Shown here piece after piece: positions 2,421 through 49,212 of a DNA stretch of 64,000 bases. How positions within the stretch are numbered: the stretch's first letter is position 1; each line of letters starts with the position of its first letter. The notes under the pieces are model-generated. The model ran no database searches. It saw only the letters and a list, made by a program, of their open reading frames with translations, and was not told where the DNA came from. Source of the stretch: Paludibacteraceae bacterium (GTDB lineage: Bacteria; Bacteroidota; Bacteroidia; Bacteroidales; Paludibacteraceae); NCBI GenBank assembly GCA_017630395.1, contig JAGBVI010000064.1, positions 1 through 64,000 on the forward strand, read 5' to 3'. The position numbers and the translations under genes are program-made.

Positions 2421-3173
2421 ATGGAAGAAAATAAAGTTGTTAAAGAGGCTAATAATGATAGATGTTATACGGTTTATATGCATACAAATAAAATAAATGG
2501 TCATTTTTATATAGGTATAACACGTCTTAAATTAAATCAACGATTTGGCAAAAATGGTGTGAATTACAAAGAATGTATATATTTTTGGAATGCAATTCAA
2601 AAATATGGTTGGGATAATTTTGAACACAATATAGTTGCGAATAATTTAACAAAAGAAGAAGCGTGTAAGTACGAAATAGAGTTAATAAAACATATGAAGG
2701 TAGAAAAGCCAAATTGTTGTTATAATATATTGCTTGGTGGTGAACTTGGCAGAACTGGCATTGTAGCGACCGAAGAATATAAAGATAAATTTAGAGGTGA
2801 AAAAAATCCAGTGGCAAAAAGTGTTATTTGTATTGAAACAAATAGAATATTTGATACAGTAACAGAAGCTTCAAAATTTTATAATATAGATAGAAGAAAT
2901 ATTATTAGAGCATGTCAGACTGGAAGAACTTGTGGAAAACTCGATGGTAAGAGGTTACATTGGGCGTATTACGATAAAGAAAATAACATATATAATCTCG
3001 TAAAGCACAAACCTCACGAGAGAAAAGTTTATTGTGAAACAACTGGGATGTATTTTGCTTCTTTACAAGCAGCCGCAGATTTTTATGATGTTTCCTATGA
3101 TAGTATTTGGTGGTCTTGTAATCACAATACTATTACTTCGTATGGGTTTAGATGGAGGTATGTAGATGGCTAA
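2421..3173 (+). CDS. GIY-YIG homing endonuclease with NUMOD-like repeats
   Basis: A 250-residue protein. Residues about 14-95 form a GIY-YIG nuclease domain: YTVYMHT then HFYIGIT (the YIG part), a downstream Arg in the RF-GKNG segment, and a conserved Glu in EEACKYEIELI. This is followed by two tandem DNA-binding modules (about 130-190 and 200-250) that resemble NUMOD1 repeats: VICIETNRIFDTVTEASKF and VYCETTGMYFASLQAAADF. This architecture is that of freestanding phage homing endonucleases, which cut intronless or insertless alleles at a neighbouring locus. Its 3' end overlaps the next gene by eight bases. No intron signature was found around it, so it appears freestanding. Confidence 0.85.
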   Translation: MEENKVVKEANNDRCYTVYMHTNKINGHFYIGITRLKLNQRFGKNGVNYKECIYFWNAIQKYGWDNFEHNIVANNLTKEEACKYEIELIKHMKVEKPNCCYNILLGGELGRTGIVATEEYKDKFRGEKNPVAKSVICIETNRIFDTVTEASKFYNIDRRNIIRACQTGRTCGKLDGKRLHWAYYDKENNIYNLVKHKPHERKVYCETTGMYFASLQAAADFYDVSYDSIWWSCNHNTITSYGFRWRYVDG

Positions 3174-3696
3174 AAATGTTGGAAAAATTTTCGAGGAATC
3201 TATCAAACAATCAATTCCTGACCATTGTCTTTTAATAAGGCTCAACGATTCTCCACAAGCATTTAAACAAAGTAATTTAACAAGATTCACACCCAAATCT
3301 CCATTTGATTATTTGTGTTTTGATACAAAATCAAGAACCCTCTTCTGTTTAGAATTAAAATCTACAAGTAATAAGTATATGGGTTTTGAAGATATTAACA
3401 GTAATGAAGAACAAAATAGTATGATTCATAAACATCAAATACTTGGTTTGTTGAAATGTTCAACTTATCCAAATATTGTCTCTGGTTTTCTTTTAAATTT
3501 TAGACTACCAGATAGTGAATTAACTTATTTTATAGAGATAAATCAGTTTCAAAAGATGTGTGAGTCTATTAATAAAAAATCGTTTAACATAATGGATTTG
3601 ATTTTATTTGAAGCAAAAAAAATAGAAGGATTTAAGAAACGAACACGATGGTATTGGAATCTCGATGATTTTTTTGAATCCTTTTATAATAATTAA
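3166..3696 (+). CDS. RecU-like Holliday junction resolvase / PD-(D/E)XK nuclease
   Basis: A 176-residue protein with the RecU layout: an N-terminal GKIFEESIKQS helix, a metal-binding Asp in SPFDYLCFD, then LELKSTS carrying the E-x-K pair, then an IHKHQILGL segment like the conserved His/Gln region of RecU. Family members resolve four-way DNA junctions during recombination. The start overlaps the end of the GIY-YIG gene by eight bases, so the two are translationally coupled and may have arrived as one block. Placing a RecU-like gene within a tail module is unusual. Family assignment rests on motif spacing, so a related PD-(D/E)XK nuclease is possible. Confidence 0.65.
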   Translation: MAKNVGKIFEESIKQSIPDHCLLIRLNDSPQAFKQSNLTRFTPKSPFDYLCFDTKSRTLFCLELKSTSNKYMGFEDINSNEEQNSMIHKHQILGLLKCSTYPNIVSGFLLNFRLPDSELTYFIEINQFQKMCESINKKSFNIMDLILFEAKKIEGFKKRTRWYWNLDDFFESFYNN

Positions 3697-4907: not shown

Positions 4908-5936
4908 ATGGCAAAAAATAATAGTAGGGAAACATTTCGAAAGGTGATTACATCTGACGAATTAATTGCTCAAATAAATACAGAGAATATTAAATTAATG
5001 GAAAGATTTTTGAAGAATTTTGCTACTAAGCGTTCTCCTAAGTCTGTTGTTGTATATAGAAGCAATTTGAACATCTTTTTTGTTTGGAATTTGCTTTACA
5101 ATGACAATATCCATTTTACTGAAATTAAAAAATATCATCTTATGGATTTCTTCGATTTTGGTGTAACAGAGTTGCAGTGGAGTCCAAACCGATATGCTAT
5201 GATGCACAGCACCTTATCAAGTTTTAGCACATTTATAGAAACATTCTTCGATGAAAAATATGAATCATTCCGTAATCTTTTGCCCAAGATTGAGAAGCTT
5301 CCAAAAGATGTTGTTCGTAAGAAATCTGTATTTACCAAAGAAGAACTAGACAAACTTATGGATTGGCTTGGTGAAATTGATAAACCTCAAGAGCAGTGTT
5401 TATTAGCTATTATGATGGCATCTGGTGCAAGAGCAAGCGAATTAGTAAGATTTACTACGACTATGATTGATGAAAATCATACTGCTTTTGAAGGTTTATT
5501 TTTAGAAACAACTGAAGAAATGCAAGTTAAAGGTCGTGGAACTCAAGGAAAGAAAATATTAAGATATATTATTAAAGATTTGTTTTTGCCCTATTATAAA
5601 AAGTGGTTGCCTATTAGAGAAAAAATCATGAAAGAGAATGGTAAAGAACACGATTATATCTTTATTCGCTCTGATGGTGAGCCAGCTCAAGTGACGACTA
5701 CTCGTGGTTGGATTGAAAAGTGGGATACTGTTTTGGATAAGCACCTTTATTTCCATTCTATTCGTCATTTTTGGACTACCTACCTTCTATCTCTTGGTTT
5801 GGAAAAAGAATTTGTACAAGAATTACAAGATTGGTCAAGCGATACACTTGTAAATCTTTACAATGATGCGACTATGAAAGACCGTAAATGGAAGAATTTA
5901 GATAAGTTGGCTCAAGCTATGGAGCAAGAAAAATAA
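4908..5936 (+). CDS. Tyrosine recombinase (XerD/phage integrase family)
   Basis: A 342-residue tyrosine recombinase. An N-terminal SAM-like core-binding domain spans about 20-125. The catalytic set is visible: Arg175 in ASGARASEL, Lys208 in MQVKGRG, His283-x-x-Arg286 in HSIRH, Trp309 in place of the second His (LQDWSS), and Tyr318 as nucleophile (LVNLYND). All five positions are present, so it is probably active. AAGGAGGATGA precedes the ATG. It lies directly upstream of the tape measure gene, inside the tail module and co-directional with it, which is atypical for an integrase. A separate serine recombinase at 47638 is the more conventional integrase candidate. Confidence 0.9.
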   Translation: MAKNNSRETFRKVITSDELIAQINTENIKLMERFLKNFATKRSPKSVVVYRSNLNIFFVWNLLYNDNIHFTEIKKYHLMDFFDFGVTELQWSPNRYAMMHSTLSSFSTFIETFFDEKYESFRNLLPKIEKLPKDVVRKKSVFTKEELDKLMDWLGEIDKPQEQCLLAIMMASGARASELVRFTTTMIDENHTAFEGLFLETTEEMQVKGRGTQGKKILRYIIKDLFLPYYKKWLPIREKIMKENGKEHDYIFIRSDGEPAQVTTTRGWIEKWDTVLDKHLYFHSIRHFWTTYLLSLGLEKEFVQELQDWSSDTLVNLYNDATMKDRKWKNLDKLAQAMEQEK

Positions 5937-6122: not shown

Positions 6123-8714
6123 ATGGCTGATTACAGAATAGAACTTGGAGTTCATGTAAGAACCAGTGAAATAAGAAAGCAAATCAGTACTTATAATGCA
6201 AATAGTAACAATGCTAAACTTCAATTAGGCGTTAAGCTTAATACGGCAGATTTACAAAAGCAATTACAAGGCTTGAATACTGCGGTTAACGGAAAAAACC
6301 TTTTATCTTTAAATACCTCATCTTTAAATACTTCTCTTGATAAAGTAGAGAAGAATATTAATGATATTAAAGCGGCTATGGGCACTCTTGATAAGGGAAC
6401 TGGAATGAAGTCTTTACTTGCTTCCGTTAATCAAATTAGTGCTGCGTTGGATAAAGCTACCAAACAATTTGCAGAATTAAACGCAAATCTTAACAATTTG
6501 TCTGGTAAGAATTTCGGCGTAAACATTGGTCTTAATTTAGGTGGTGGTAATGCCGTATCAAGAAATGCTGCTTATGGTAGTATGGTACGAAATGAGACGC
6601 TTCCGCAATTACAACAACAAGTTACAGCGTTAGAAGGTTACTTACAAAAATATTATAAAGTTGCAGACGGCTTTGCTGCCGCTCAAAAATTGGTACAAGG
6701 TACTGCCGTTGCCACTGGTCAGAATAACCTTCTTACCTTGGTACCAAAAATGCTTGATACTTCTGGAAGTTTATCAAGCCAGATGACAGCTTATAAGCAA
6801 TATATTGCGTTAATAAAAGAAGCGGCGGCTGTAAAAGGAATTGATTTAAGTCCAGTTACTTCAGGATTCTCTCAGTCGGCTGACCAGCTTGTCACAAAAG
6901 CTCAGAATGTTCAAACGGGAGTAGGTCAACTTGATGATTCACTTCAAAAACTAAAAGGTGTTTTTGGTAGTGGTATTAATGCTGAAAAACTTTCTACTCA
7001 ACTTGACTCTATAGTTGTGGATTTAAATGAAATTAAAACTGCTTTACAAGGATTATCTCAAAATGCGTCCTTAAATAGTTTAATACAAAGTTTCAACAAT
7101 CTTTCGACTTCTATTGAAAAGCTAATTGGAAATGCGACACAAGCCAAAGGTGTTCTTGCCGATGGATTAAATTCCTCTGGAGCAAGTGCTGGGACACAGA
7201 AAGCGATTCAAGAACAAGAGCATTTAGCGGAAACTACTACACGAGCTGCAAATGCTGTTTCTCAGAGTGGTCAAAAGATAAATCAAGCATTTACCCAAAT
7301 GGCGAGTGCGGGTAAACTAGACCCTCTTCAATTACAAGATGATATTACTGAAGCGGATAGATTTGCCGCTGCATTAAGTAGACTAAAAAACGTACAAAGT
7401 AATCTTGGTAGAATTGAAGTTGGAAAAATAAATACATCGAGCGGTGTTCAACAGTTAAAGACATTAGAAGCACAATTAGAGTCTTTGTCTGCTGAATATA
7501 ATGAAACTATCGCAGAAATAAATGGTATGGGCGGTGTATCCGCTACACAGCTTACGACTTTCCAAAATCAAGCTAGAACTACTAGTCTTAAATTAGATGA
7601 ATTAAAAGCCAAAATTATAGATACCAAAGCACAACTCGCTAGTGGTATTCAAGCGAATTTTGGTAATTATGATACGGCGTTAGCTACTCTTGAGGGCAAG
7701 TTTAATAGACTTGCGTTAAAGCCGCCTGAGCTTAGTGCTGGGTTAGAGGCTGTAAGACAAGCATTGGCAACCTTAAAGAATGCCGATAGTACAGAAGCAA
7801 TCATTGCTGCCAATGAAAATTATAAAAGAGTATTAAAAGAAGTTAGTGCTCAAATTAATCTGAATGCGGCAGCAGAACGAAATTCTAACGAAGCTGCTCT
7901 TTTAACTCAGCAAAAGCAACAGTTGGCTTTAAAAATGAGTAATTGGCTTAGGGATAATTCTGCTGCTGCTAAACAGTTTGGTGGAGAAATACGAAATTTA
8001 CAAGCAGCACTTCAGAGTTGTGGAAATACATCTGGTGTTAGACAGGTTGGCGAACAATTTGAAACGGTTACATTAAAGGCTAAAGAAGCTGGTTTAACCT
8101 CTTTGACTTTTGGTGACAGACTTAAGAAACAATTTGCTCAGTACTCATCATATTTCTCTGTATACACCATGTTTATGTACACAATTCGTGCCTTAAGAAG
8201 CATGTTTACGCAAGTCAAAGAGATTGACTCTGCGATGACAGAACTCAAGAAGGTTACGAATGAAACTGATGCGGCTTATAATAAATTCTTAACTAATGCT
8301 GCTACAAGAGCAAAAGAGATTGGTACGACCATTGATGGTTTGGTAAGTTCCACTGCTGATTTTGCAAGATTAGGATATAGTTTTAAAGATTCTCAAAAGC
8401 TTGCAGAAGTAGCAAATATATATGCGGTTGTTGGTGATGAAGTTAATGGCGTTGAAGGCGCAACAGAAAGCTTAGTTTCTACAATGGCTGCGTTTAAGGG
8501 CGAAATGAATGGTATGAGCAATGGTGACTTTGCCATGAGTATCGCTGATAAATTTAATGAAATAGGCAACAATTTCGCTATTTCATCAGGTGGTATTGGT
8601 GAAGCATTAAAGAGGTCTGCTTCTTCTCTTGATGCCGCAAACAATACAATTGACGAGTCGATTGCGTTAATCACAGCAGCAAATACAGTTGTGCAAGACC
8701 CAGAAGCTGTCGGT
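6123..8714 (+). CDS. Tape measure protein, exon 1 (864 codons)
   Basis: First exon of the tape measure protein, which sets tail length and lines the tail tube. Residues 1-750 are Ala/Gln/Asn/Ser-rich coiled-coil, as is usual. From about residue 700 it contains the conserved tape-measure core: FSVYTMFMYTIRALRS, then KEIDSAMTELKKVT, then a region up to DPEAVG. AAGGAG precedes the ATG at 6123. The frame would continue to an unrelated stop at 8753, but the conserved family sequence breaks at Gly864 and resumes at 10010 as TAFKTISMRIRGAKT. Exon 1 therefore ends at 8714, where a group I intron begins. A gene model ending at 8753 would give a false C-terminus. Confidence 0.85.
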
Positions 8715-10009
8715 AAAGGTTATGCCGACATTAAAAGTGGCTATATCGGTTAAACTCCTGAGAAGGACAAGACCGAGGAAAGACTTTATAAGTATTTTTG
8801 ATATACATCAATTAGGAAGGGTGTATATATTTTTAAATCAATATTAAGGAAGTGATATTATACCAGCAAAGGGACAATTAAGTGGTTATTGGGTGAATTG
8901 TGAATATTGTGGCAAATTGATTTATAAAACAAAAACAAACTACAATAGACATAAGCATCATTATTGTAGTAATGAATGTCAAAAAAAGAAGCAACATGAA
9001 GTAACACATGAAGATAGAGTGTGTGAGATATGTGGAGAATCTTTCCATGTTTCTAAAAAATCTACACAACGTTTTTGCTCAATAGAATGTCAAGGTAAAT
9101 GGCAATCTACACAATTGGGAGTTGATAATCCAAGATTTACAAGTCAAAAGGTATCTTGTGATTTTTGTGAAAAAGAATATTATATAAAAAAATATAAAAT
9201 TGGTAGTTTTGAACACAAGTTTTGTTCCAATGATTGTAGACAAGCGTGGTATTCAGAAGTGTTTAGTCAAGATGAAGAATGGAAAGAAAAATCAAGAAAA
9301 CGAGCAGTTAAAATTCTTGAAAATAAAAAAATAGATACTAACACAAAGCCACAACAAATAATAAATGATTTGTTGGATTATATGAAAACTAATTATATTA
9401 ATGAGCATGGCTTTAGGTATTATGCCGTTGATAATTATTTAAATGATTATAATTTAGTTATTGAGGTTATGGGAGATTTTTGGCATTGCCATCCATTGAA
9501 GTACACAAAAGAAAATATGAAAGATATCCACAAAAAAAGAATTCCAAGAGACAAAGCAAAGCACACCTATTTTAAAAATAATTACAATATCGAAATTTTG
9601 TATCTATGGGAAGATGATATTTATAACAATTTAGATGTTTGTGAAAGTTTAATAAATAAATATATAAATAATAATGGAATATTAGAAAACTATCATTCAT
9701 TTAATTATCATATAGAAGATGATAATTTAATTTTAAATGAAAACATTATAATTCCATATCAAGACATGGTTAATGCCTAATCATTTGGCTATGTCTTTAA
9801 AAATACTTATAAAGAATCCGTAGAGACTGTAATACTTAATATGGCAACATATTGAGTTTCGCCACTCATTTCTCTTGATAGGAGATTTGAAGATACAGTC
9901 CGAACTCACACTATAATCTAACAATGAAATGTGAGAGTTAGCCAGAAATGACTAACCGCTATGATATATTCATAGTCAGTAGGTTTAAGATACCGAAAGT
10001 AACAGATTG
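8715..10009 (+). ncRNA. Group I (IA-like) self-splicing intron in the tape measure gene
   Basis: A 1,295-base intron. P1 forms between exon end GTCGGT (8709-8714) and GCCGAC (8724-8729) with the diagnostic U-G pair at the 5' splice site. P3 is AAACTC (8752-8757) with GAGTTT (9854-9859). An extended P6 pairs CTTTATAAGTATTTTT (8784-8799) perfectly with 9799-9814 and holds the endonuclease gene in its loop. P7 is GACTGT (9825-9830) with ACAGTC (9895-9900), inside the conserved S element AAGATACAGTCC. P7.1 is AATATG-GCAA-CATATT (9838-9853), an IA trait. P8 is TCTC/GAGA near 9870-9885. The intron ends in G at 10009. Splicing restores an uninterrupted frame giving VG-TAFKTISMR. Confidence 0.9.
8860..9780 (+). 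CDS. Intron-encoded homing endonuclease, Vsr-like (EDxHD type)
   Basis: Three Cys4 zinc modules lie in tandem (CEYC...CSNEC, CEIC...CSIEC, CDFC...CSNDC; about residues 13-120), followed by a helical linker and a C-terminal Vsr-like nuclease domain with IEVMGDFWHCHP and a later YLWEDDI segment. This matches phage homing endonucleases such as I-Bth0305I, which spread introns by cutting intronless alleles. It sits in the P6 loop of the group I intron. The start is uncertain: AAGGA at 8846-8850 is spaced correctly for codon 8860, which is ATA (then CCAGCAAAG), whereas the first GTG (8893) has no ribosome site and omits part of the N-terminus. I therefore prefer a non-AUG or mutated start at 8860. 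Confidence 0.8.
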   Translation: MPAKGQLSGYWVNCEYCGKLIYKTKTNYNRHKHHYCSNECQKKKQHEVTHEDRVCEICGESFHVSKKSTQRFCSIECQGKWQSTQLGVDNPRFTSQKVSCDFCEKEYYIKKYKIGSFEHKFCSNDCRQAWYSEVFSQDEEWKEKSRKRAVKILENKKIDTNTKPQQIINDLLDYMKTNYINEHGFRYYAVDNYLNDYNLVIEVMGDFWHCHPLKYTKENMKDIHKKRIPRDKAKHTYFKNNYNIEILYLWEDDIYNNLDVCESLINKYINNNGILENYHSFNYHIEDDNLILNENIIIPYQDMVNA

Positions 10010-13000
10010 ACAGCATTTAAAACTATTTCCATGCGTATTCGAGGAGCAAAAACTGAACTCGAAGAGGCTGGTCTTGAAACCGAAGGTATGGTAGAATCCA
10101 CTGCCAAACTTAGAGAAGAAATCCTTGCTCTCTCAGGCGTGGATATCATGGAAATTGATGGTGAAACATTTAAATCCACATACAAAATCATGGATGAACT
10201 TGCCGTTAAATGGGAAGAATTAACAGACATCCAGCAAGCAAGTATTACAGAGTTAATCGCTGGTAAACGACAGGGTAACATAGTTTCCAGCTTAATGACA
10301 AACTTTGATACGGCAAGAGACGCACTTGAAACATCTCTTGGTTCTGAAGATTCAATGACAACAGAACACGAGAAATGGCAAAAATCTCTTGAATCTAGTA
10401 TCAACTCCCTCAAAGCTTCTTGGCAGAGTTTATCTCAGACATTTTTAGACTCTGATTTTTTGAAGAGTTCTATTAGTGTTCTCACATCTTTTGTAGATAT
10501 TCTTGAAAAATTAATAGATACATTTGGTGTCTTGGGTACAATTGGACTAGGTGTTTTCGGCAAGAATATTTTTGGTCATTTTAAAAATGCAAAAAAGAGT
10601 ATCGAAGAAACTACTGTTGCTACTCAAGCGGCAACTATTGCAAATCAAGAACATGCTGCTTCTGAAGAAGTTAAGGCAGTAGCCACTAACAATGATACGA
10701 TAGCTACCGATGCTAATACAACTGCTGAAGTTGCCAACACTACGGCAACTAATAATGACACTGTAGCAGAGAATGCTAATACTATTGCCGAGCAATCTAA
10801 CACCACAGCCACTAATAATGATACTGTGGCTACTAATGCCAATACCGTAGCAGAAACAGCTAACACCACAGCCACTAATAATGATACTGTGGCTACTAAT
10901 GCCAATACAACTGCTGAAGTTGCTAATACAACTGCTACTAATGCTGACACTGTAGCAGAAAATGCCAATACTGCGGCTGAAGTTGCTAATACCACAGCTA
11001 AGTCTAAATTAACTAAGGTCACAGGTAAACTTGGAACTGGTATTAGTGGACTTATTGGTAAATTAGGTGGATGGCTTAGTGTCCTTTCTATTGCCGTTAC
11101 TGTTATTGGTGCAGTGACTAATGCCATTAAAAAACAAAGAGAAGAACAAGCGGCTCAACGACAAGAAACAATAGACTCAGCAAATGCGTTCTTAGATGCT
11201 TCAAAATCTTTTGAACTTGCATATATTAAATATGCCGATAAAACAAGTTTGACCGCCGAAGAAGAAGCAGACCTTGAATCAGCAATTAAAGGGACTGTTG
11301 ACGCTCTTGGAGATAAGTCAAGTGCTTTACAAAATGCTGTTAATAGTGGCGATGATTATATTGATTCTCTTAAGAGAATTCAAAACGAAGTATTAAAAAC
11401 AGAAGAATCCAAAGCGAAAGAAAAATATACAAATGCCAAAGAATCGCTTAAAGAGTCTGCAAATAAATGGTGGACAGGCACAAACGATAATATTGTATAT
11501 GTTCATGACCCGAAAGCTATAAAAATTGCCGAAAAAATAGATAGCGATTTTTATGGAATGAAAGAAATTTATTATGGAAGTGGTGGCGGAAGTGCGGAAA
11601 CTCCAGTATTTGAAATTCCTTCTGACGCAGATTGCGATAAGATACTTGATTTTTACAACGATTTACTAGAATACAAAGAAGGTTTGATAGATGCAGGCTT
11701 TGAAAATGAAAGCCAAGATATGAAGAGTTTAAACGACTTTTTAAATAGAACAAAAGAAGCTATTGAAACCTATAAATCTGCTAAACTTGATTTAAAAAAA
11801 GCTGAGTATTTAGTTGACCATGACCCCCCAAAGACAAGCGAAGATTATATCAAAATGAGAAGAGAAATGATTGAGGGTATTGGCGGAGACTTAAAATATA
11901 GAAAAGAAGTCGCTAATATTCTTGATGAGCACTATGGTTCAGTATTCGACCTCTCTTCTGTTGAATTCCAAGCCAGACAATTTGATAAAATAATCAAAGC
12001 TTATGGCGATGGTTCAAAAGATGGAACTAATGATATCGGTACAGTAGAAACCTTCCTTAATATGCGTACAGCCGTTAACAATAACGAATGTACTATTGGT
12101 CAGTACATGGACGCATTTAATGATGTCAAAGCGTTAGAGAAAAATTATAGCAAAGAAGAAAAAGAATACTTCGAAACTTCTTTGGGTCTTGATACAGATA
12201 AGATAAAAGACCAGTATCATGATGCTATGAGAGCGTTTGTAGTGGGTCGAGGTAAACCTTATGACGATTGGGTTTTCGAAGCTATGGAAGACGTTAAGGC
12301 AGGCAAGGTGCCTGCCGCTAAAAGTGTTGCTGAATTCATAGAATTTGAAGAATATCTAAGTAGTCTAACTGCAACAGAGCTTCAAGCTCTCGTTAATCTT
12401 AAACCTAAGATAGATTGGGAAAATGGTACTATTGATTCCATCATTAAACAAGTCGAAGAAGAAGCAAAGTTAATCGAAGCTATCTCTTTTACTGTTGATT
12501 TAGACATCGAAACTGAAAAGTTAGAGAATTTATCTAAAACTGTATCCGAATCTCTTTCTGGTGCTGGATTAGGAACAGAATCCATGTCTCTCGTTGAAGA
12601 TATGTTCGGTGACTTAGATGGTTATGACCCTACTGCTTTATTTGAACGTACTGCAAATGGTATTCGTTTAAATGCTGAAGAATATAGAAAGTTAAGCGAT
12701 GAATATAAAAAAGAAAACATAGATGGGCTTGAAGGTAAACTGGATGCTCTTGGTACGAGATATAATCAAACAAGAGAAGAACTTTCTGATTTAACATATG
12801 GTTCAGCAGAGTACAATAAGAAGCTTAACGAACTTGATGGTATCGAAGCTCAAATAAATGACACAGAAACTCTCTTGTCTATGTATAAAGGTCTTAATTC
12901 TGCATATCAATCATGGCAAAGAGCCGAATCTTCTGGTTCTCAGCGTGATATGTATGAGAACATGATTAAAGGCTTTGAAACTGTTGGTGATGAGATTTCT

Positions 13001-16000
13001 CGTGGTTGGTTAGATGACGGCACCATAGAATTCCTTAGACTCATTAAAGGTGAAAGTCTTTCTGCGACAGCCACAACAAAAGACTACATGAAGGCATGGA
13101 ATAGTCTTGATGATACTATTAAGAATACAACTTATAGCGTCCGTGATTTCTTTACTGTAGACGAAGACGGAAACTCTACTAATGGTGGTGTTTATAATTT
13201 CTTAGATGCTATCGGTCAGTTAGAAGAAGAAGAATTTGGTGGTAAAGATGTTGTAAAAAGAGATAAAGATGGCAATATCATCGGTTTTGATTTCAAGATT
13301 GTTGGTGGAGATAAGGCTATTGCTGATGCTCTTGGAATCAGTGAAGAGCTTGTTCAAATAATGGTTCGTGCTGCTGATGATGCTGGCTTTGTAGTTAGCA
13401 TGGATGGTACGTATCAGCAGTTGGATACATTAAAAGAAAAAGCTCAAGATGCTGCTAATAAGTTAAAAGATACTTTTGGCAAGACTGATTTTGAGTTCAA
13501 TCTTAATACTGGCAATGAAAAATCTATTCAAGACCAATATACTGAAGCCTTAAAGATTTGGGCAGAATTTGCAAAGAATAAGAACCAAGATGGCACTGTT
13601 AACATGGATGTTGAGGGTGCCGAAGAAGCCTTTACTCTTGTAAGTACATTGCAATCTATGGTTGATAGATTGAGTGAACCTGCTTATATGAAACTTGATG
13701 CGACTCAAGTTGAAAAGGATATGAAGACTCCTCTCTCTAAATTGCAAGAGTATGAGCGTCTTACTCAACAAGAGAATCAATTAAAACTTAAAGGCACTGA
13801 CACTTCTGAAATAGATAAATCACAAGAAGAAATTCTTGATTATTTTGAAGGTCTTGACCCCGAGATTCAAGCGAGTATTGGTATTAAAGGTGATAGCAGA
13901 GAAGAAATTCAGCAAAAGTTAGAATCTGGTGAAATAGAGATACCTGCAACTGTTGACTTACAAGTTGAAATGAATGACACATTAAGAGATATGGTCAATG
14001 TGGCTCTTTATAATGCTGGTCTTTTGGGTGAAGGTGAAGAAGGAAAGGCGGAATTAAAAAAGAGGGTTGATATTGAGCTTTATGCTGAAAATGTTGATAC
14101 TGAAGATGTTGACGAAGCAGAAAAAGAAGCGATAGAAGATACTAAAGCAAAGACAAGAAAAAAGAACGTCAAAATTATTGCTAAAACAATTGGTATCGAA
14201 GATGTTGACAATTTATCAGAAAAATTAAAAAACCTTGATGACAAAACTATTAAAGCTATTGCCGAGGTACTTGGTCAAGTAGATGTTGAGAAGTTAAAAG
14301 ACACTATGGCTAAACTTGAGCCTACACAAGTAGAAGCAATTGCTAAAGCCATAGGTCAAGGTGATGTTGATGGCTTAAAAGAATCAATTAGTAGTCTTAG
14401 TCCAACATATGTTCAAGCAATTGCAGAAGCCTTTGGCTATACCGATGTTCAAGACCTTTATAATGCTATTGAAAAATTAGACCCTAAAACTGTTGAAGCT
14501 GTTGCCAATGCATTAGGAATTACCGATGTTGAAAGTCTTAAAGGCGCTATCGATAATGTACAAGGTAAAGATGTTGAAGTAAAAGCAACAACATCTGGAG
14601 AAGGTGCATTAAGTGGTTTAAAGAGTCTTATTGATAGTATAAAGAGTAAGTCAGTCACTATTAAAAGTTTCTTTAAAAAGATTACCTCTGGTGGTTCTAC
14701 TAGAAATGATAGTAATGGATTTAGTGATGTAAACGGTACTGCTCATGCTAACGGTACAGTTGGCAGAGCATATTCTCGTGGTGATTGGACAATTAAAAAT
14801 TCTGGCACTGCTCTTGGTGGTGAACTTGGCACCGAAATATTAGTACGTAATGGTAGATGGTTTACCATCGGAGATAATGGCGCTGAATTTTTCCAATACA
14901 AAAAGGGTGATATAATTTTTAATCACCGTCAAAGTGAAGAACTTTTGCGCAATGGAAGAGTTGCTTCTAATGGTGGTCGAGGCAAGGCTTTTGCCGAAGG
15001 AACCGCTTTTAGTAATGGTTCTACTGGTTTATACGGTTTAAAAAAAGTTATAGGCGAAGCTGTAGAAGCTGTTAAGTCATTTACAAAAAAGACTTCTGAA
15101 AAGGCTTCTGAAAAGAAGAATGATAATAAATCTTCTGGCAATAATGAGAGTAGCGGAAGTGGTTCTTCGGGTGGTAATGGTGGCACTGGCAATGCTGATA
15201 CGCTTGGAAATAAAGGTGGAGATTCGGTTGGTACTTCTGAATCTGAAAAAGACAAATTCGAAGAAACTATCGACTTTGTAGAGATTGCCATTTCTCGAAT
15301 TGAGAGAGAAATTAACAATCTCGATAGGACGGCAAACAATGTTTATAAGTCTTGGTCTGAAAGAAACACGGCATTAGCAAGCGAGATAAGCAAAGTCAGC
15401 GATGAAATTGAGGTTCAACAACAGGGTTATAAGAGATATTTAGCAGAAGCTAATTCTGTTGGTCTTTCTGAGACTTGGGCTAGTAAAGTTCGTAATGGTA
15501 CTATTGACATATATGACGAAAAGAATTTTGACGAAGATACTGCTAAAAAGATAAAGGAATATCAGCAGTGGTATGAAAAAGCACTCTCATGTAAAGACGC
15601 TGTTGATGAACTCAAAGAAACTGAAGCATCTCTTTATAAGCAACGCTTTGATAATGTTCAAGCTCAATATGATGGTATTCTTCAGGGCTATGAGCATACT
15701 GAAACTATGCTTAATGAATATATCTCTCAGGCAGAAGCAAAAGGTTATATTGTAAGTGAAAAGTATTATGATGCTTTAATCACTAATGAAAAGCAGAATA
15801 TTAATAAACTTAAAGACGAGCAAGCTGCTTTAATTGCTGCAAGAGATAAAGCTGTCGATGAAGGTAAAATAATTAAAGGCAGTCAAGCATGGGTCGATAT
15901 GTGCAATGAAATTGATTCTGTTACGCAAGCTATTGAAGAAGGTAATACTGCTCTTATTGAGTATAACAATTCAATTCGTGATATAGAATGGGAAAAGTTC

Positions 16001-17770
16001 GATTTAATTCAAGAGCGTATTTCTGACATTACAGCAGAAGCAAACTTTTTAATTGAGTTAATGAGTAATAAAAAGCTCTTTAATGATGATGGTAAGTTAA
16101 CTGAACAAGGTGCATCTACTATGGGTCTGCATGGTCAGAACTATAATACTTATATGTATCAAGCCGATGACTATGGTAAAGAAGTTGCAAAACTTGATAA
16201 GCAAATCGCAAAAGACCCATATGATAAAGAACTTATCAATCGTAGAAGAGAACTTATTGAACTTCAAAGAGAATCTATCCTTAATGCCGAACAAGAAAAG
16301 AACGCTATTAAAGACCTTGTAGAAGAAGGAATAAATCTTGAATTGGATGCACTCCAAGAAAAGATAGACCTTCATAACGAAGAACTTGATAGCATGAAAA
16401 ATCTTTATGAATATCAAGAAAATGTTAAAGAACAGACTGCTGAGATTGCATCTTTACAAAAGCAATTAAGTGCTTATTCTGGAGATAATAGCGAAGAAGC
16501 TCAGAAGAAGGTTCAAGAATTAAAGGTATCTCTTGAAGAGGCTGAAAAGGATTTACAAGAGACAGAATGGGACAGATATATCGACCAACAATCTCAACTT
16601 CTTGATTCTTTATACACTGAGTATGAAACTATACTCAATAGTCGTCTTGATAATATTGACTTCCTCTTAGAACAAGTTATTGATGGTATTAATGCTGCCG
16701 CAGGAACCGATGGTACATTAACTTCTGCTTTAGGTGTCGAAGGTGCTATTGCTCAAGCCATAGTAAACGCTATGGGTGAAAATGGCACAATGAAAGGCAT
16801 TTTAAATACAGAAGCTACTAAGGTTGGTACTACTCTTTCTAACGCAATGAATAATATTTGGAGTGTTGGTGAAGGCAATGCAAAATCTGTATTAACAGAA
16901 TATGGCAAAGGATTCCAAAGCAAACAAACTACAACAAATACTGTATTAGGTAATATTAAAGCAGATGTTGCTGCAATGGTTGATGATATCGATAAAGATG
17001 CTAAAAAGAAGGTTGAAGCACCTAAAACGCAATCTTCTGCTAAAGTAACTCCAATTAAAAATGCTGGCAAGAATGTTATAACTCAAGCCAACAATAATAA
17101 TAAAAAGGATTCTAAGGCAAATATTACAGAAGATACTCTTATGGGTGTCGCTGCTTCGATTTGGAACTATCAAAAAGAAAATTACGGTGGCTGGGGTGCT
17201 AATCCCACTCGTGAGAAAAGATTAACTGATAAACTTGGCGCTGAAAATGCTAAAAAGGTACAAAGTTATATCAATGCTTATGGTGCTAATGGAAAGCTAT
17301 ATAATTTCTGGATTTCTAAAAATAAGAACCTTGATAAGTACAAATATAATGCCTTTAAGTCTGGTGCTAAAAATATTAGTAAGTCTCAATACGCTTGGAC
17401 ACAAGAAGATGGTCAAGAGCTTATCGTTAGACCTTCTGATGGTGCAATTCTTACTCCCGTTGCAAAAAGAGATAGCGTTCTTAATACACAAGCAAGCGAA
17501 AATCTTTGGAATATGACTAACTCCCCTGCTGAGTTTATTAAAGACAATTTGAATTTTAATACTTCTAATGTTCCTAATAACTCTAATGTTCAGAGTAATC
17601 TTACTCAGCATTTTGAAAACATTACATTTAATATGCCTAATGTTAAGAACTATGAACAACTTATTTCTGAAATGCAGAGGGATAAGAATTTCGAAAATTT
17701 AATTCTTTCAATGACTGTTAACCAAATTGCTGGTAAAAGCAAGCTTGCTAAAGGTAAGGCTATTAGATGA
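10010..17770 (+). CDS. Tape measure protein, exon 2 (2,586 residues)
   Basis: Second exon; with exon 1 the protein is 3,450 residues. It opens with the conserved TAFKTISMRIRGAKT block. In spliced numbering: a hydrophobic segment near 1036, a Thr/Asn/Ala-rich degenerate repeat at about 1087-1197, a transmembrane-like segment at about 1219-1240, repeated helical units around 2270-2400 (VEAIAKAIGQGDV, VQAIAEAFGYTDV, VEAVANALGITDV), a Gly-rich domain near 2448 (GRAYSRGDWTIKNSG), long coiled coils at about 2620-3060 and a C-terminal globular region containing GGWGANPTREKRL. The TTG at 10007 is not a start; it is the last three bases of the intron. A terminator hairpin follows the TGA stop. Confidence 0.88.
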   Translation, partial: TAFKTISMRIRGAKTELEEAGLETEGMVESTAKLREEILALSGVDIMEIDGETFKSTYKIMDELAVKWEELTDIQQASITELIAGKRQGNIVSSLMTNFDTARDALETSLGSEDSMTTEHEKWQKSLESSINSLKASWQSLSQTFLDSDFLKSSISVLTSFVDILEKLIDTFGVLGTIGLGVFGKNIFGHFKNAKKSIEETTVATQAATIANQEHAASEEVKAVATNNDTIATDANTTAEVANTTATNNDTVAENANTIAEQSNTTATNNDTVATNANTVAETANTTATNNDTVATNANTTAEVANTTATNADTVAENANTAAEVANTTAKSKLTKVTGKLGTGISGLIGKLGGWLSVLSIAVTVIGAVTNAIKKQREEQAAQRQETIDSANAFLDASKSFELAYIKYADKTSLTAEEEADLESAIKGTVDALGDKSSALQNAVNSGDDYIDSLKRIQNEVLKTEESKAKEKYTNAKESLKESANKWWTGTNDNIVYVHDPKAIKIAEKIDSDFYGMKEIYYGSGGGSAETPVFEIPSDADCDKILDFYNDLLEYKEGLIDAGFENESQDMKSLNDFLNRTKEAIETYKSAKLDLKKAEYLVDHDPPKTSEDYIKMRREMIEGIGGDLKYRKEVANILDEHYGSVFDLSSVEFQARQFDKIIKAYGDGSKDGTNDIGTVETFLNMRTAVNNNECTIGQYMDAFNDVKALEKNYSKEEKEYFETSLGLDTDKIKDQYHDAMRAFVVGRGKPYDDWVFEAMEDVKAGKVPAAKSVAEFIEFEEYLSSLTATELQALVNLKPKIDWENGTIDSIIKQVEEEAKLIEAISFTVDLDIETEKLENLSKTVSESLSGAGLGTESMSLVEDMFGDLDGYDPTALFERTANGIRLNAEEYRKLSDEYKKENIDGLEGKLDALGTRYNQTREELSDLTYGSAEYNKKLNELDGIEAQINDTETLLSMYKGLNSAYQSWQRAESSGSQRDMYENMIKGFETVGDEISRGWLDDGTIEFLRLIKGESLSATATTKDYMKAWNSLDDTIKNTTYSVRDFFTVDEDGNSTNGGVYNFLDAIGQLEEEEFGGKDVVKRDKDGNIIGFDFKIVGGDKAIADALGISEELVQIMVRAADDAGFVVSMDGTYQQLDTLKEKAQDAANKLKDTFGKTDFEFNLNTGNEKSIQDQYTEALKIWAEFAKNKNQDGTVNMDVEGAEEAFTLVSTLQSMVDRLSEPAYMKLDATQVEKDMKTPLSKLQEYERLTQQENQLKLKGTDTSEIDKSQEEILDYFEGLDPEIQASIGIKGDSREEIQQKLESGEIEIPATVDLQVEMNDTLRDMVNVALYNAGLLGEGEEGKAELKKRVDIELYAENVDTEDVDEAEKEAIEDTKAKTRKKNVKIIAKTIGIEDVDNLSEKLKNLDDKTIKAIAEVLGQVDVEKLKDTMAKLEPTQVEAIAKAIGQGDVDGLKESISSLSPTYVQAIAEAFGYTDVQDLYNAIEKLDPKTVEAVANALGITDVESLKGAIDNVQGKDVEVKATTSGEGALSGLKSLIDSIKSKSVTIKSFFKKITSGGSTRNDSNGFSDVNGTAHANGTVGRAYSRGDWTIKNSGTALGGELGTEILVRNGRWFTIGDNGAEFFQYKKGDIIFNHRQSEELLRNGRVASNGGRGKAFAEGTAFSNGSTGLYGLKKVIGEAVEAVKSFTKKTSEKASEKKNDNKSSGNNESSGSGSSGGNGGTGNADTLGNKGGDSVGTSESEKDKFEETIDFVEIAISRIEREINNLDRTANNVYKSWSERNTALASEISKVSDEIEVQQQGYKRYLAEANSVGLSETWASKVRNGTIDIYDEKNFDEDTAKKIKEYQQWYEKALSCKDAVDELKETEASLYKQRFDNVQAQYDGILQGYEHTETMLNEYISQAEAKGYIVSEKYYDALITNEKQNINKLKDEQAALIAARDKAVDEGKIIKGSQAWVDMCNEIDSVTQAIEEGNTALIEYNNSIRDIEWEKFDLIQERISDITAEANFLIELMSNKKLFNDDGKLTEQGASTMGLHGQNYNTYMYQADDYGKEVAKLDKQIAKDPYDKELINRRRELIELQRESILNAEQEKNAIKDLVEEGINLELDALQEKIDLHNEELDSMKNLYEYQENVKEQTAEIASLQKQLSAYSGDNSEEAQKKVQELKVSLEEAEKDLQETEWDRYIDQQSQLLDSLYTEYETILNSRLDNIDFLLEQVIDGINAAAGTDGTLTSALGVEGAIAQAIVNAMGENGTMKGILNTEATKVGTTLSNAMNNIWSVGEGNAKSVLTEYGKGFQSKQTTTNTVLGNIKADVAAMVDDIDKDAKKKVEAPKTQSSAKVTPIKNAGKNVITQANNNNKKDSKANITEDTLMGVAASIWNYQKENYGGWGANPTREKRLTDKLGAENAKKVQSYINAYGANGKLYNFWISKNKNLDKYKYNAFKSGAKNISKSQYAWTQEDGQELIVRPSDGAILTPVAKRDSVLNTQASENLWNMTNSPAEFIKDNLNFNTSNVPNNSNVQSNLTQHFENITFNMPNVKNYEQLISEMQRDKNFENLILSMTVNQIAGKSKLAKGKAIR
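10675..11007 (+). repeat. Degenerate coding repeats in tape measure
   Basis: About seven imperfect copies of a short unit such as NTTATNNDTVATNA are encoded here, with DNA units repeated almost exactly (for example GCCACTAATAATGATACTG at about 10808 and 10868). They give a flexible Thr/Asn/Ala-rich segment between the conserved core and a membrane-like segment. Copy number could change tail length by slippage or recombination. Confidence 0.75.
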
Positions 17771-47637: not shown

Positions 47638-49212
47638 ATGGCACCAAGGACAGATGGAACAGCGTTGGGTTTAAGAATAGGTATATATGGAAGGTATTCA
47701 GATTCAAACCAAGATGATGGGTTTTCAATAGAATACCAATTATCTGAATGTACCGATTATATGAACAAGCATGGCTTGGAATTGCATAAAACTTATATTG
47801 ACCAAGCCGTAACAGGAACAAAAGTTGCTGGTCGTGATGCTTTTCATGAGTTAGTACACGATGTTAAGAATGGTTTAATAGATGTTATAATAGTCTACAA
47901 ATTTAGTAGGATATTTCGTAACGCCTATGAAAGCCACAAATATCGTAAACTATTTAAAAAGCATGGTGTTAAACTTATTTCTGTTACACAACAAGTTGAT
48001 GACGAAACCTCTTCTGGTCAATTGATGATTGGCGTTATGGCAAATATTGATGAATACCAAAGTGCTGTAATTAGCGACCATGTTAAGAGTGCTATGCGTG
48101 AAATGGTTTCGGAAGGTTTCTTTGCAGGTGGCACAGTTCCATATGGTTATAAATTGGAAACTGTACAACACGGTAAAAAGACTAGAAAGAAATATGTACC
48201 AGACGAGTTTGAAAAGGAAGTTGTAAAAAAACTGTATGAGTTGTATGTAGACAATTACTCTTTGAAATACTTGCAAGATTACACAAAGAGTATTGGGGCG
48301 GCTGCAAGGTCTGGTAAACCATTTAGCATACAAACTATTGCAAGGATGCTAAGGAATGACTTTTATATCGGAGTGTTACGATATAATGCACAAGGTCATG
48401 AGCCTATTGTTGTATATGATATTGTCCCTCCTATCATTGATAAAGTATTATGGGATAGGGTACAACATAGGCACAAAGGTCAAAAACATATAAGACCTCG
48501 TAAGCGAAAAGATTTATATTCTTTAACAGGAAAGATTATTTGTGGCAAATGTGGAGCACACTTCTTTGGTATACGAAGTGCGAGTACGCAGAGAGGAAAG
48601 TATTATGATTACAAGTATTATGTATGTTCAGAGAGCAAAACATATAAAACTTGTTCTTGTAAGAGGGTGAGAAAAGACTTTTTGGAAAAGGCTGTTTTAG
48701 ATGAGATAAAGAAACACATCTTAAATGAAAAAGCCATTTACCAAATTGCCAATGAGATTATTGTTAAGTTGGGCGAGAACCCAGATGGTCAAAGGAACAA
48801 GCTTAAAGAGTTTAAGAAAGAATTATCAACTGTAAAATCTCAAATATCTGAACTGTTGGATTTGAAATCCTTAAAGTTGGTTGACAATGTTTATCTTGTA
48901 GAACATATGAAACCTCTTCAAGAAAGAGCAAAAGAGCTTGAGGTACAAATATATGCCATTGAGCAACAAACTAAAATGACTATCACTCATGCTATGATTG
49001 TCGACTATCTTCATAAGATGATGGATATATCTGATACAACAGATGATGAGGTTTTACAAACTATCTTTAATAATTTTGTTGAGAAGATTGTCATTGATAA
49101 TGAGACGATTGAGATTCGCCTCTTCGTCTCTTCTCCTACTGCCCATATTGGGCATAAGTTAAATTTCGGACAGCCAAACGTGACAATATGCTCAAAAATT
49201 AAGAGAGTGTAA
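47638..49212 (+). CDS. Large serine recombinase (phage integrase)
   Basis: A 524-residue large serine recombinase. The N-terminal resolvase domain has GIYGRYSDSNQ with catalytic Ser21 (Y-x-R-x-S-x-x-x-Q) and VYKFSRIFRN, with its conserved Arg pair. A recombinase domain follows (GGTVPYGYKLE, then IQTIARMLRNDFYIG), then a zinc ribbon (ICGKCGAHFFG ... YYVCSES ... CSCKR) and a coiled coil (about 380-440). All expected domains are present, so it is likely active. It catalyses site-specific integration and, with a directionality factor, excision. AAATGGAGTGATTGT precedes the ATG. It lies just after the last late terminator, a usual integrase site. attP could not be identified. Confidence 0.92.
   Translation: MAPRTDGTALGLRIGIYGRYSDSNQDDGFSIEYQLSECTDYMNKHGLELHKTYIDQAVTGTKVAGRDAFHELVHDVKNGLIDVIIVYKFSRIFRNAYESHKYRKLFKKHGVKLISVTQQVDDETSSGQLMIGVMANIDEYQSAVISDHVKSAMREMVSEGFFAGGTVPYGYKLETVQHGKKTRKKYVPDEFEKEVVKKLYELYVDNYSLKYLQDYTKSIGAAARSGKPFSIQTIARMLRNDFYIGVLRYNAQGHEPIVVYDIVPPIIDKVLWDRVQHRHKGQKHIRPRKRKDLYSLTGKIICGKCGAHFFGIRSASTQRGKYYDYKYYVCSESKTYKTCSCKRVRKDFLEKAVLDEIKKHILNEKAIYQIANEIIVKLGENPDGQRNKLKEFKKELSTVKSQISELLDLKSLKLVDNVYLVEHMKPLQERAKELEVQIYAIEQQTKMTITHAMIVDYLHKMMDISDTTDDEVLQTIFNNFVEKIVIDNETIEIRLFVSSPTAHIGHKLNFGQPNVTICSKIKRV

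Follow-up and report, generated by a model that had tools for sequence, protein, structure and literature searches.

How is a phage tape-measure gene read when its conserved core is split between two open reading frames (ORFs)? This question is raised by a 64,000-nt stretch of DNA from a Paludibacteraceae bacterium (contig JAGBVI010000064.1 of assembly GCA_017630395.1, positions 1 to 64,000; hereafter the window), which is part of a 156,022-bp contig (C45) in a 3.57-Mb draft bacterial genome of 128 contigs. Unspliced, the gene falls into ORFs 6123-8753 and 10007-17770, as an earlier note made from the sequence alone had pointed out. We conclude that the segment between the exons, 8715-10009, is almost certainly a mobile group I intron with a homing endonuclease in the conserved tape-measure core, and we infer its splicing, cleavage and homing from the sequence features described below. 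The elements of the interrupted gene are:

6123-8714, plus strand: tape-measure gene exon 1, 864 codons (ORF; PHROG 4211, E 2.1e-42; Pfam PhageMin_Tail, 6.4e-10)
8715-10009, plus strand: predicted group I intron, 1,295 nt (exact junction in intronless homologues; covarying core)
8863-9780, plus strand: gene inside the P6 loop for a predicted homing endonuclease with zinc-ribbon-like Cys repeats and a Vsr/EDxHD nuclease domain
10010-17770, plus strand: tape-measure gene exon 2, 2586 codons plus stop (ORF)

The exon ends of the intron are exactly defined. The 5' exon ends in ...GTCGGT at 8714 and exon 2 begins with ACA GCA TTT AAA ACT (TAFKT) at 10010; the last intron base is G10009, the terminal G named in the earlier note, and its removal together with the rest of the intron restores the reading frame exactly. 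Tape-measure families match on both sides, the first 497 codons of exon 2 being recognised by TIGR01760 (E 6.7e-9) and PHROG 4211 (E 2.1e-29), and the latter profile runs without a gap across the junction, with the last residue of exon 1 at profile position 771 and residue 2 of exon 2 at 773. For comparison with intronless genes, a homologue set was collected by a protein search of viral contigs with the 250 codons before 8714, made without reference to the intron; it comprises 39 loci (L numbers below denote loci), and L072 was retrieved but lies outside those counted. Zero extra bases separate the homologues of the last exon-1 and first exon-2 residues in 35/39, so that the proposed join of VG to TAFKTISMR without a frameshift occurs exactly in these genes. 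L009 and L010 (Brevibacillus phage Sundance) also join seamlessly. Near copies are frequent, the 38 homologue loci other than L101 amounting to 19 distinct exon sequences. Among the four homologues that are not seamless, L086 and L087 have 1,606 extra nt at the intron's junction point, L097 reads GTGGGT followed by AAACATATGCCC through to the contig end, and L101 has an insertion slightly upstream of the junction. The flanking exons of L017 and L049 are near-identical, and, judged by eye, the former has an intron at the window's site where the latter has an empty site. A further 1.6-kb insertion follows codon 77 of the exon-2 homologue in L073-L076; in L073 it contains a nuclease-like ORF related to ORFs of L058 and L064.

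The flanks of the endonuclease gene can be folded into a group I ribozyme with P3, P4, P5, P6, P7 and P8 in canonical order. The assigned elements, all on the plus strand, are:

8708-8714/8724-8730, plus strand: P1, 7 bp (sequence pairing; U8714·G8724 at the 5' splice site)
8736-8741/9861-9866, plus strand: P3 (covariation)
8746-8750/8772-8776, plus strand: P4 (nearly invariant)
8756-8759/8764-8767, plus strand: P5 (covariation, three pairs scored)
8777-8779/9817-9819, plus strand: P6 (pairing; outside the covariation scoring)
8784-8799/9799-9814, plus strand: P6a, a 16-bp perfect helix, outer extension of the short P6 (pairing; outside the covariation scoring)
9825-9829/9896-9900, plus strand: P7, which encloses P7.1, the 3' strand of P3, P8 and J8/7
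9834-9843/9848-9857, plus strand: P7.1, with a GCAA loop (covariation; RNAfold)
9871-9876/9880-9885, plus strand: P8 (RNAfold; outside the covariation scoring)
9905-9910/9930-9935, plus strand: P9 (covariation; RNAfold)
9937-9941/9952-9956, plus strand: P9.1 (covariation; RNAfold)
9959-9964/9970-9975, plus strand: P9.2 (covariation; RNAfold)
10001-10009, plus strand: intron 3' end AACAGATTG with terminal G10009 (omega G); similar AACAG..TG endings occur in many relatives

Two helices differ somewhat from the earlier description. P1 had been placed at 8709-8714/8724-8729; the U-G at the cut stands, and the helix is one pair longer. The 16-bp perfect helix that had been called an extended P6 is there, and is better labelled P6a; in 100 approximately dinucleotide-preserving shuffles of both flanks the longest perfect match was 11. 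The visibility of P3, P7 and P7.1 is borne out by the coordinates assigned here, by the covariation of P3 and P7.1 and by the RNAfold prediction of P7 and P7.1. When 9799-10009 is folded alone, RNAfold recovers P7, P7.1, P8, P9, P9.1 and P9.2 (z -3.25; 1/200 shuffles folds equally well). L115 has, by eye, a compensatory change in P1.

A pattern search with the RNA core returned 44 stretches in viral contigs, many of them near copies, and 11 in bacterial genomes; six of the latter are titled Butyrivibrio, Lachnospiraceae bacterium, Parablautia or Acetatifactor, one is Bacillus and four are other metagenome-assembled genomes. After 14/60 rows in which the 3' segment could not be located had been dropped, covariation was counted over 34 of 38 non-redundant introns (L006b, L030, L044 and L051 were left out) against 1000 shuffles, which ignore relatedness, and the 34 introns are not all independent. 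P3 is paired in 199/202 cells, with 69 cells changed on both sides (shuffle mean 18.7, maximum 33), P5 in 102/102 with 42 such cells (8.4, 18) and P7.1 in 220/228 with 73 (16.8, 31); in P9, P9.1 and P9.2 compensatory change lies above every shuffle. P7 is weakly supported, its 11 both-side changes (shuffle maximum 9) coming mostly from one pair; its percentage of paired cells does not exceed that of the shuffles, as the sixth candidate pair does not form in the family. Compensatory change over 34 relatives thus strongly supports the predicted P3, P5, P7.1, P9, P9.1 and P9.2.

These data also bear on two other explanations. The insert could be left unspliced and the tape measure made as two separate proteins, and both fragments do have usable frames, the ORFs given above. 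We consider such genes in pieces very improbable: the break lies at the identical point in relatives that contain the exact join, compensatory changes point to strong constraint on the core in different phages, and the tape-measure introns of phage ICP1 are spliced in vivo (PMC10448857). On the core covariation and the exact join we reject it. An assembly artefact, or a free-standing endonuclease gene inserted by chance, might be suspected in a draft of 128 contigs. Such an origin is scarcely credible and is refuted by independent contigs that show the same architecture at the same base; the RNA core flanking the gene covaries as well.

The intron interrupts the conserved core of the tape-measure gene between codons for Gly and Thr, and could leave it by the self-splicing mechanism known for group I introns. 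The transcript would fold, and exogenous guanosine would attack after U8714, which is paired with G8724 in P1; the freed 3' OH of exon 1 would then attack after G10009, and ligation of VG to TAFKTISMR would yield a single tape measure of 3,450 residues. The endonuclease would cut intronless tape-measure genes at or near the site, and repair would copy the intron in.

The endonuclease gene lies in the P6 loop, as had been proposed, with its ORF inside the 16-bp helix, and is open for 305 codons. The nuclease fold is Vsr-like, of the EDxHD type, with I-Bth0305I (PDB 3r3p) as the best structural match; the match to TIGR00632 has an E of 0.0022, below the curated cut-off of that family. The structure model is moderate (mean pLDDT 67.5, pTM 0.41, six sequences), and the structural matches fall on the nuclease domain. 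On this model the P6-loop gene is predicted to encode an EDxHD (Vsr-fold) homing endonuclease. The E, D, H and D residues of this motif have catalytic roles. The earliest in-frame start of table 11 is GTG at 8893, and the likely start is AUA at 8860. This AUA lies 7-9 nt after a Shine-Dalgarno-like AAGGAAG (window 8848-8865); L113 and L114 have AUG there, and L112 and L116 also have AUA. A non-standard start or decay are both possible. All relatives found that are at least 45% identical to the endonuclease (12/12) reside at the same tape-measure site, and none of the more distant ones does (0/13). Among the relatives found, the clade thus appears site-specific, which indirectly supports cutting of intronless alleles there.

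Several observations weigh against a functional mobile intron. The covariance search suggested in the earlier note failed: Rfam Intron_gpI (RF00028) has no match in the window at the gathering threshold, nor on 8600-10100 even at E <= 10, and the ORF-less, P7.1-bearing siblings L019, L021, L023 and L052 have no Rfam match at E <= 0.01. The P1 of L114 pairs, by eye, only if a bulge is allowed. The endonuclease has no standard start codon at the expected place, and the motif E of I-Bth0305I aligns with Q164 in the window's clade, a Q that is invariant in six aligned members; this replacement makes the endonuclease activity uncertain.

The missing Rfam match is likely due to the 1-kb insert and P7.1, since L068 (87.1 bits) and L050 (65.8 bits), ORF-less members of the family that have neither, pass the cut-off of 50. 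Their RF00028 alignments put P3, P4 and P7 at the places assigned here. The related intron of Microcystis phage MaeS scores 27.5 bits, below the cut-off, and a search of the window's own genome gave four weak matches, none on contig C45. RF00028 also matches L033:130-534 (37.5 bits) and L040:1247-1677 (44.0 bits) below its cut-off; both matches are to a group I intron of another kind, situated immediately upstream of the family one.

The start codon and Q164 would also fit an intact ribozyme whose element has become immobile, its endonuclease decayed or unexpressed and the intron kept by vertical descent. Decay is seen in relatives, with ORFs open for 184, 219, 210 and 224 codons in L116, L119, L120 and L121, and L019 is ORF-less. 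In the window, the ORF remains open over its 305 codons and shares 45-61% identity with its relatives from other phage contigs, and the invariance of Q in the six clade members argues that it is no private lesion. We therefore regard loss of mobility as possible but doubtful, and retain a mobile intron as the preferred reading.

Tape-measure introns with homing endonucleases have been published for Vibrio phage ICP1, where splicing was demonstrated by RNA-seq and reverse transcription PCR (Barth et al., 2023; PMC10448857); that article calls the tape-measure gene frequently interrupted. ICP1 resembles the window in having an endonuclease-bearing intron in this essential gene, its splicing being shown there, and is set apart by description: ICP1 has three introns with HNH-3 endonucleases, whereas the window has one, with an EDxHD/Vsr-type enzyme. 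Introns in the tape-measure gene are not described in the available parts of PMC4299906, PMC7414437, PMC7409376, PMC6507118, PMC7344957 and PMC3943268. EDxHD homing endonucleases are an established family, and the last of these, a review, names the motif.

Compared with I-Bth0305I, which has motif E, the window's clade has Q, and the N-terminal part of the window's enzyme is Cys-rich and zinc-ribbon-like. I-Bth0305I comes from a Bacillus phage, where its host gene is recA. The MaeS intron (MT362618) has an RNA core 83.7% identical over 49 nt and an endonuclease 27.5% identical, and also lies in a tape-measure-like gene, but it is inserted about 50 codons upstream and is without P7.1; the features listed in MT362618 are hypothetical proteins, with no intron annotated. 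L112 (IMGVR_UViG_3300031555_002371, the contig of L048) shares the window's site, with an endonuclease 61% and exons 53% and 71% identical, on a different phage contig. Because tape-measure introns and EDxHD endonucleases are already known, we regard the window's intron as a further case of an established type of mobile intron.

The family occurs widely around this core. With codons counted from the window's insertion site as 0, predicted sister introns lie at at least seven positions: -77 (L056), about -50 (L017, L049, MaeS), -49 (L018, L024, L025, L029, L045 and others), about -8 (L064, L066), 0, +6 (L041) and about +91 (L035, L068). The automatic 5' site was displaced to another P1-like match in L049 and in L026/L038/L047, and their sites were taken from other readings. 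By our own reading, 32/44 viral stretches lie in tape-measure genes (L014, L028 and L032 partly by resemblance, the last two with PHROG support); the remaining 12 include L050, whose 5' exon matches a major head protein, and L030, whose 5' exon matches a DNA repair exonuclease. In L041:1-560 (reverse-complement orientation), two family introns lie in the tape-measure core with an exon of 17 nt (AATGCCATGAAGACGGT) between them. By eye, L017 has apparently four and L049 three insertions, putative introns, within about 50 codons of the core, and the tape-measure gene of L006 has a second intron (L006:2431-2735), which lies upstream by about 50 codons and whose 3' domain closely resembles that in the window.

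Some sister introns contain ORFs other than endonucleases. At the site [SG]SGR|QKGT[DE]EW, such introns were found on five contigs (L014, L060, L061, L062, L067): the ORFs are proteasome-like in L014 (E 2.9e-4) and L062 (2.4e-4), just below the Pfam cut-off, DUF3800 in L060 (E 7.9e-12) and an N-terminally hydrophobic protein in L061, and a domain search assigned no family to that of L067. L059, whose 5' exon end is the same as that of L028, encodes a NYN nuclease (E 4e-19), and L032 a PemK/MazF-like protein (E 5.9e-16); a lipoprotein-like ORF is also among the cargo of this set, which includes L028 and L017. PADLOC gave only weak matches. By PHROG match, L028, L032 and, weakly, L062 (E 3.3e-5) have their intron in a tape-measure gene, and the tested exon pieces of L014 and L059 have no PHROG match. 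The host gene of L014 is less sure, since it has no exon match and contains a distinct tape-measure core about 5 kb further downstream. A literature search, with most subscription journals outside its scope, found no paper on such intron cargo. Taken together, these loci may reflect one group I intron lineage that uses the tape-measure gene as its main landing zone, at these core positions and sometimes several times per gene, each type of endonuclease being bound to a particular site; at certain phage or prophage loci, several of which are in Lachnospiraceae genomes, accessory genes (NYN nuclease, PemK/MazF-like, DUF3800, proteasome-like, lipoprotein-like) would have taken the place of the endonuclease, making the intron a spliced-out cargo slot in an essential structural gene. 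We hold the arguments for this joint interpretation to be evenly balanced.

The contig around the intron is that of a phage, with recognised tail genes, NrdD, DNA ligase and an integrase gene related to DNA invertases (PHROG 95, 125), and seven tRNAs. A tyrosine recombinase gene (4908-5936; Phage_integrase, E 1.2e-18) lies directly upstream of the tape-measure gene, and the invertase-related integrase gene is present besides it at 47638-49212. A gene for a GIY-YIG endonuclease (2421-3173; NUMOD1 matches weakly) adjoins a RecU-like ORF (3166-3696) among structural genes, and the J8/7-P7 motif pattern found no group I core motif near it. On both strands of the 64 kb this pattern matches only the tape-measure intron, and the family core pattern matches once in the whole genome, so that the GIY-YIG gene shows no sign of a related intron around it. 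The tape-measure region is present in 1/16 genomes of the genus, the window's own, and in 2/300 of the family, one being its own.

Phage genes of this sort are probably under-recognised, since plain ORF calling yields two truncated tape-measure genes and Rfam does not detect the intron. With alleles both occupied and empty at one exact base, and an apparently site-specific endonuclease clade, this set would make a clean system for testing homing into a tail gene, and the cargo-bearing sisters raise the question of whether accessory phage genes can be carried by group I introns.
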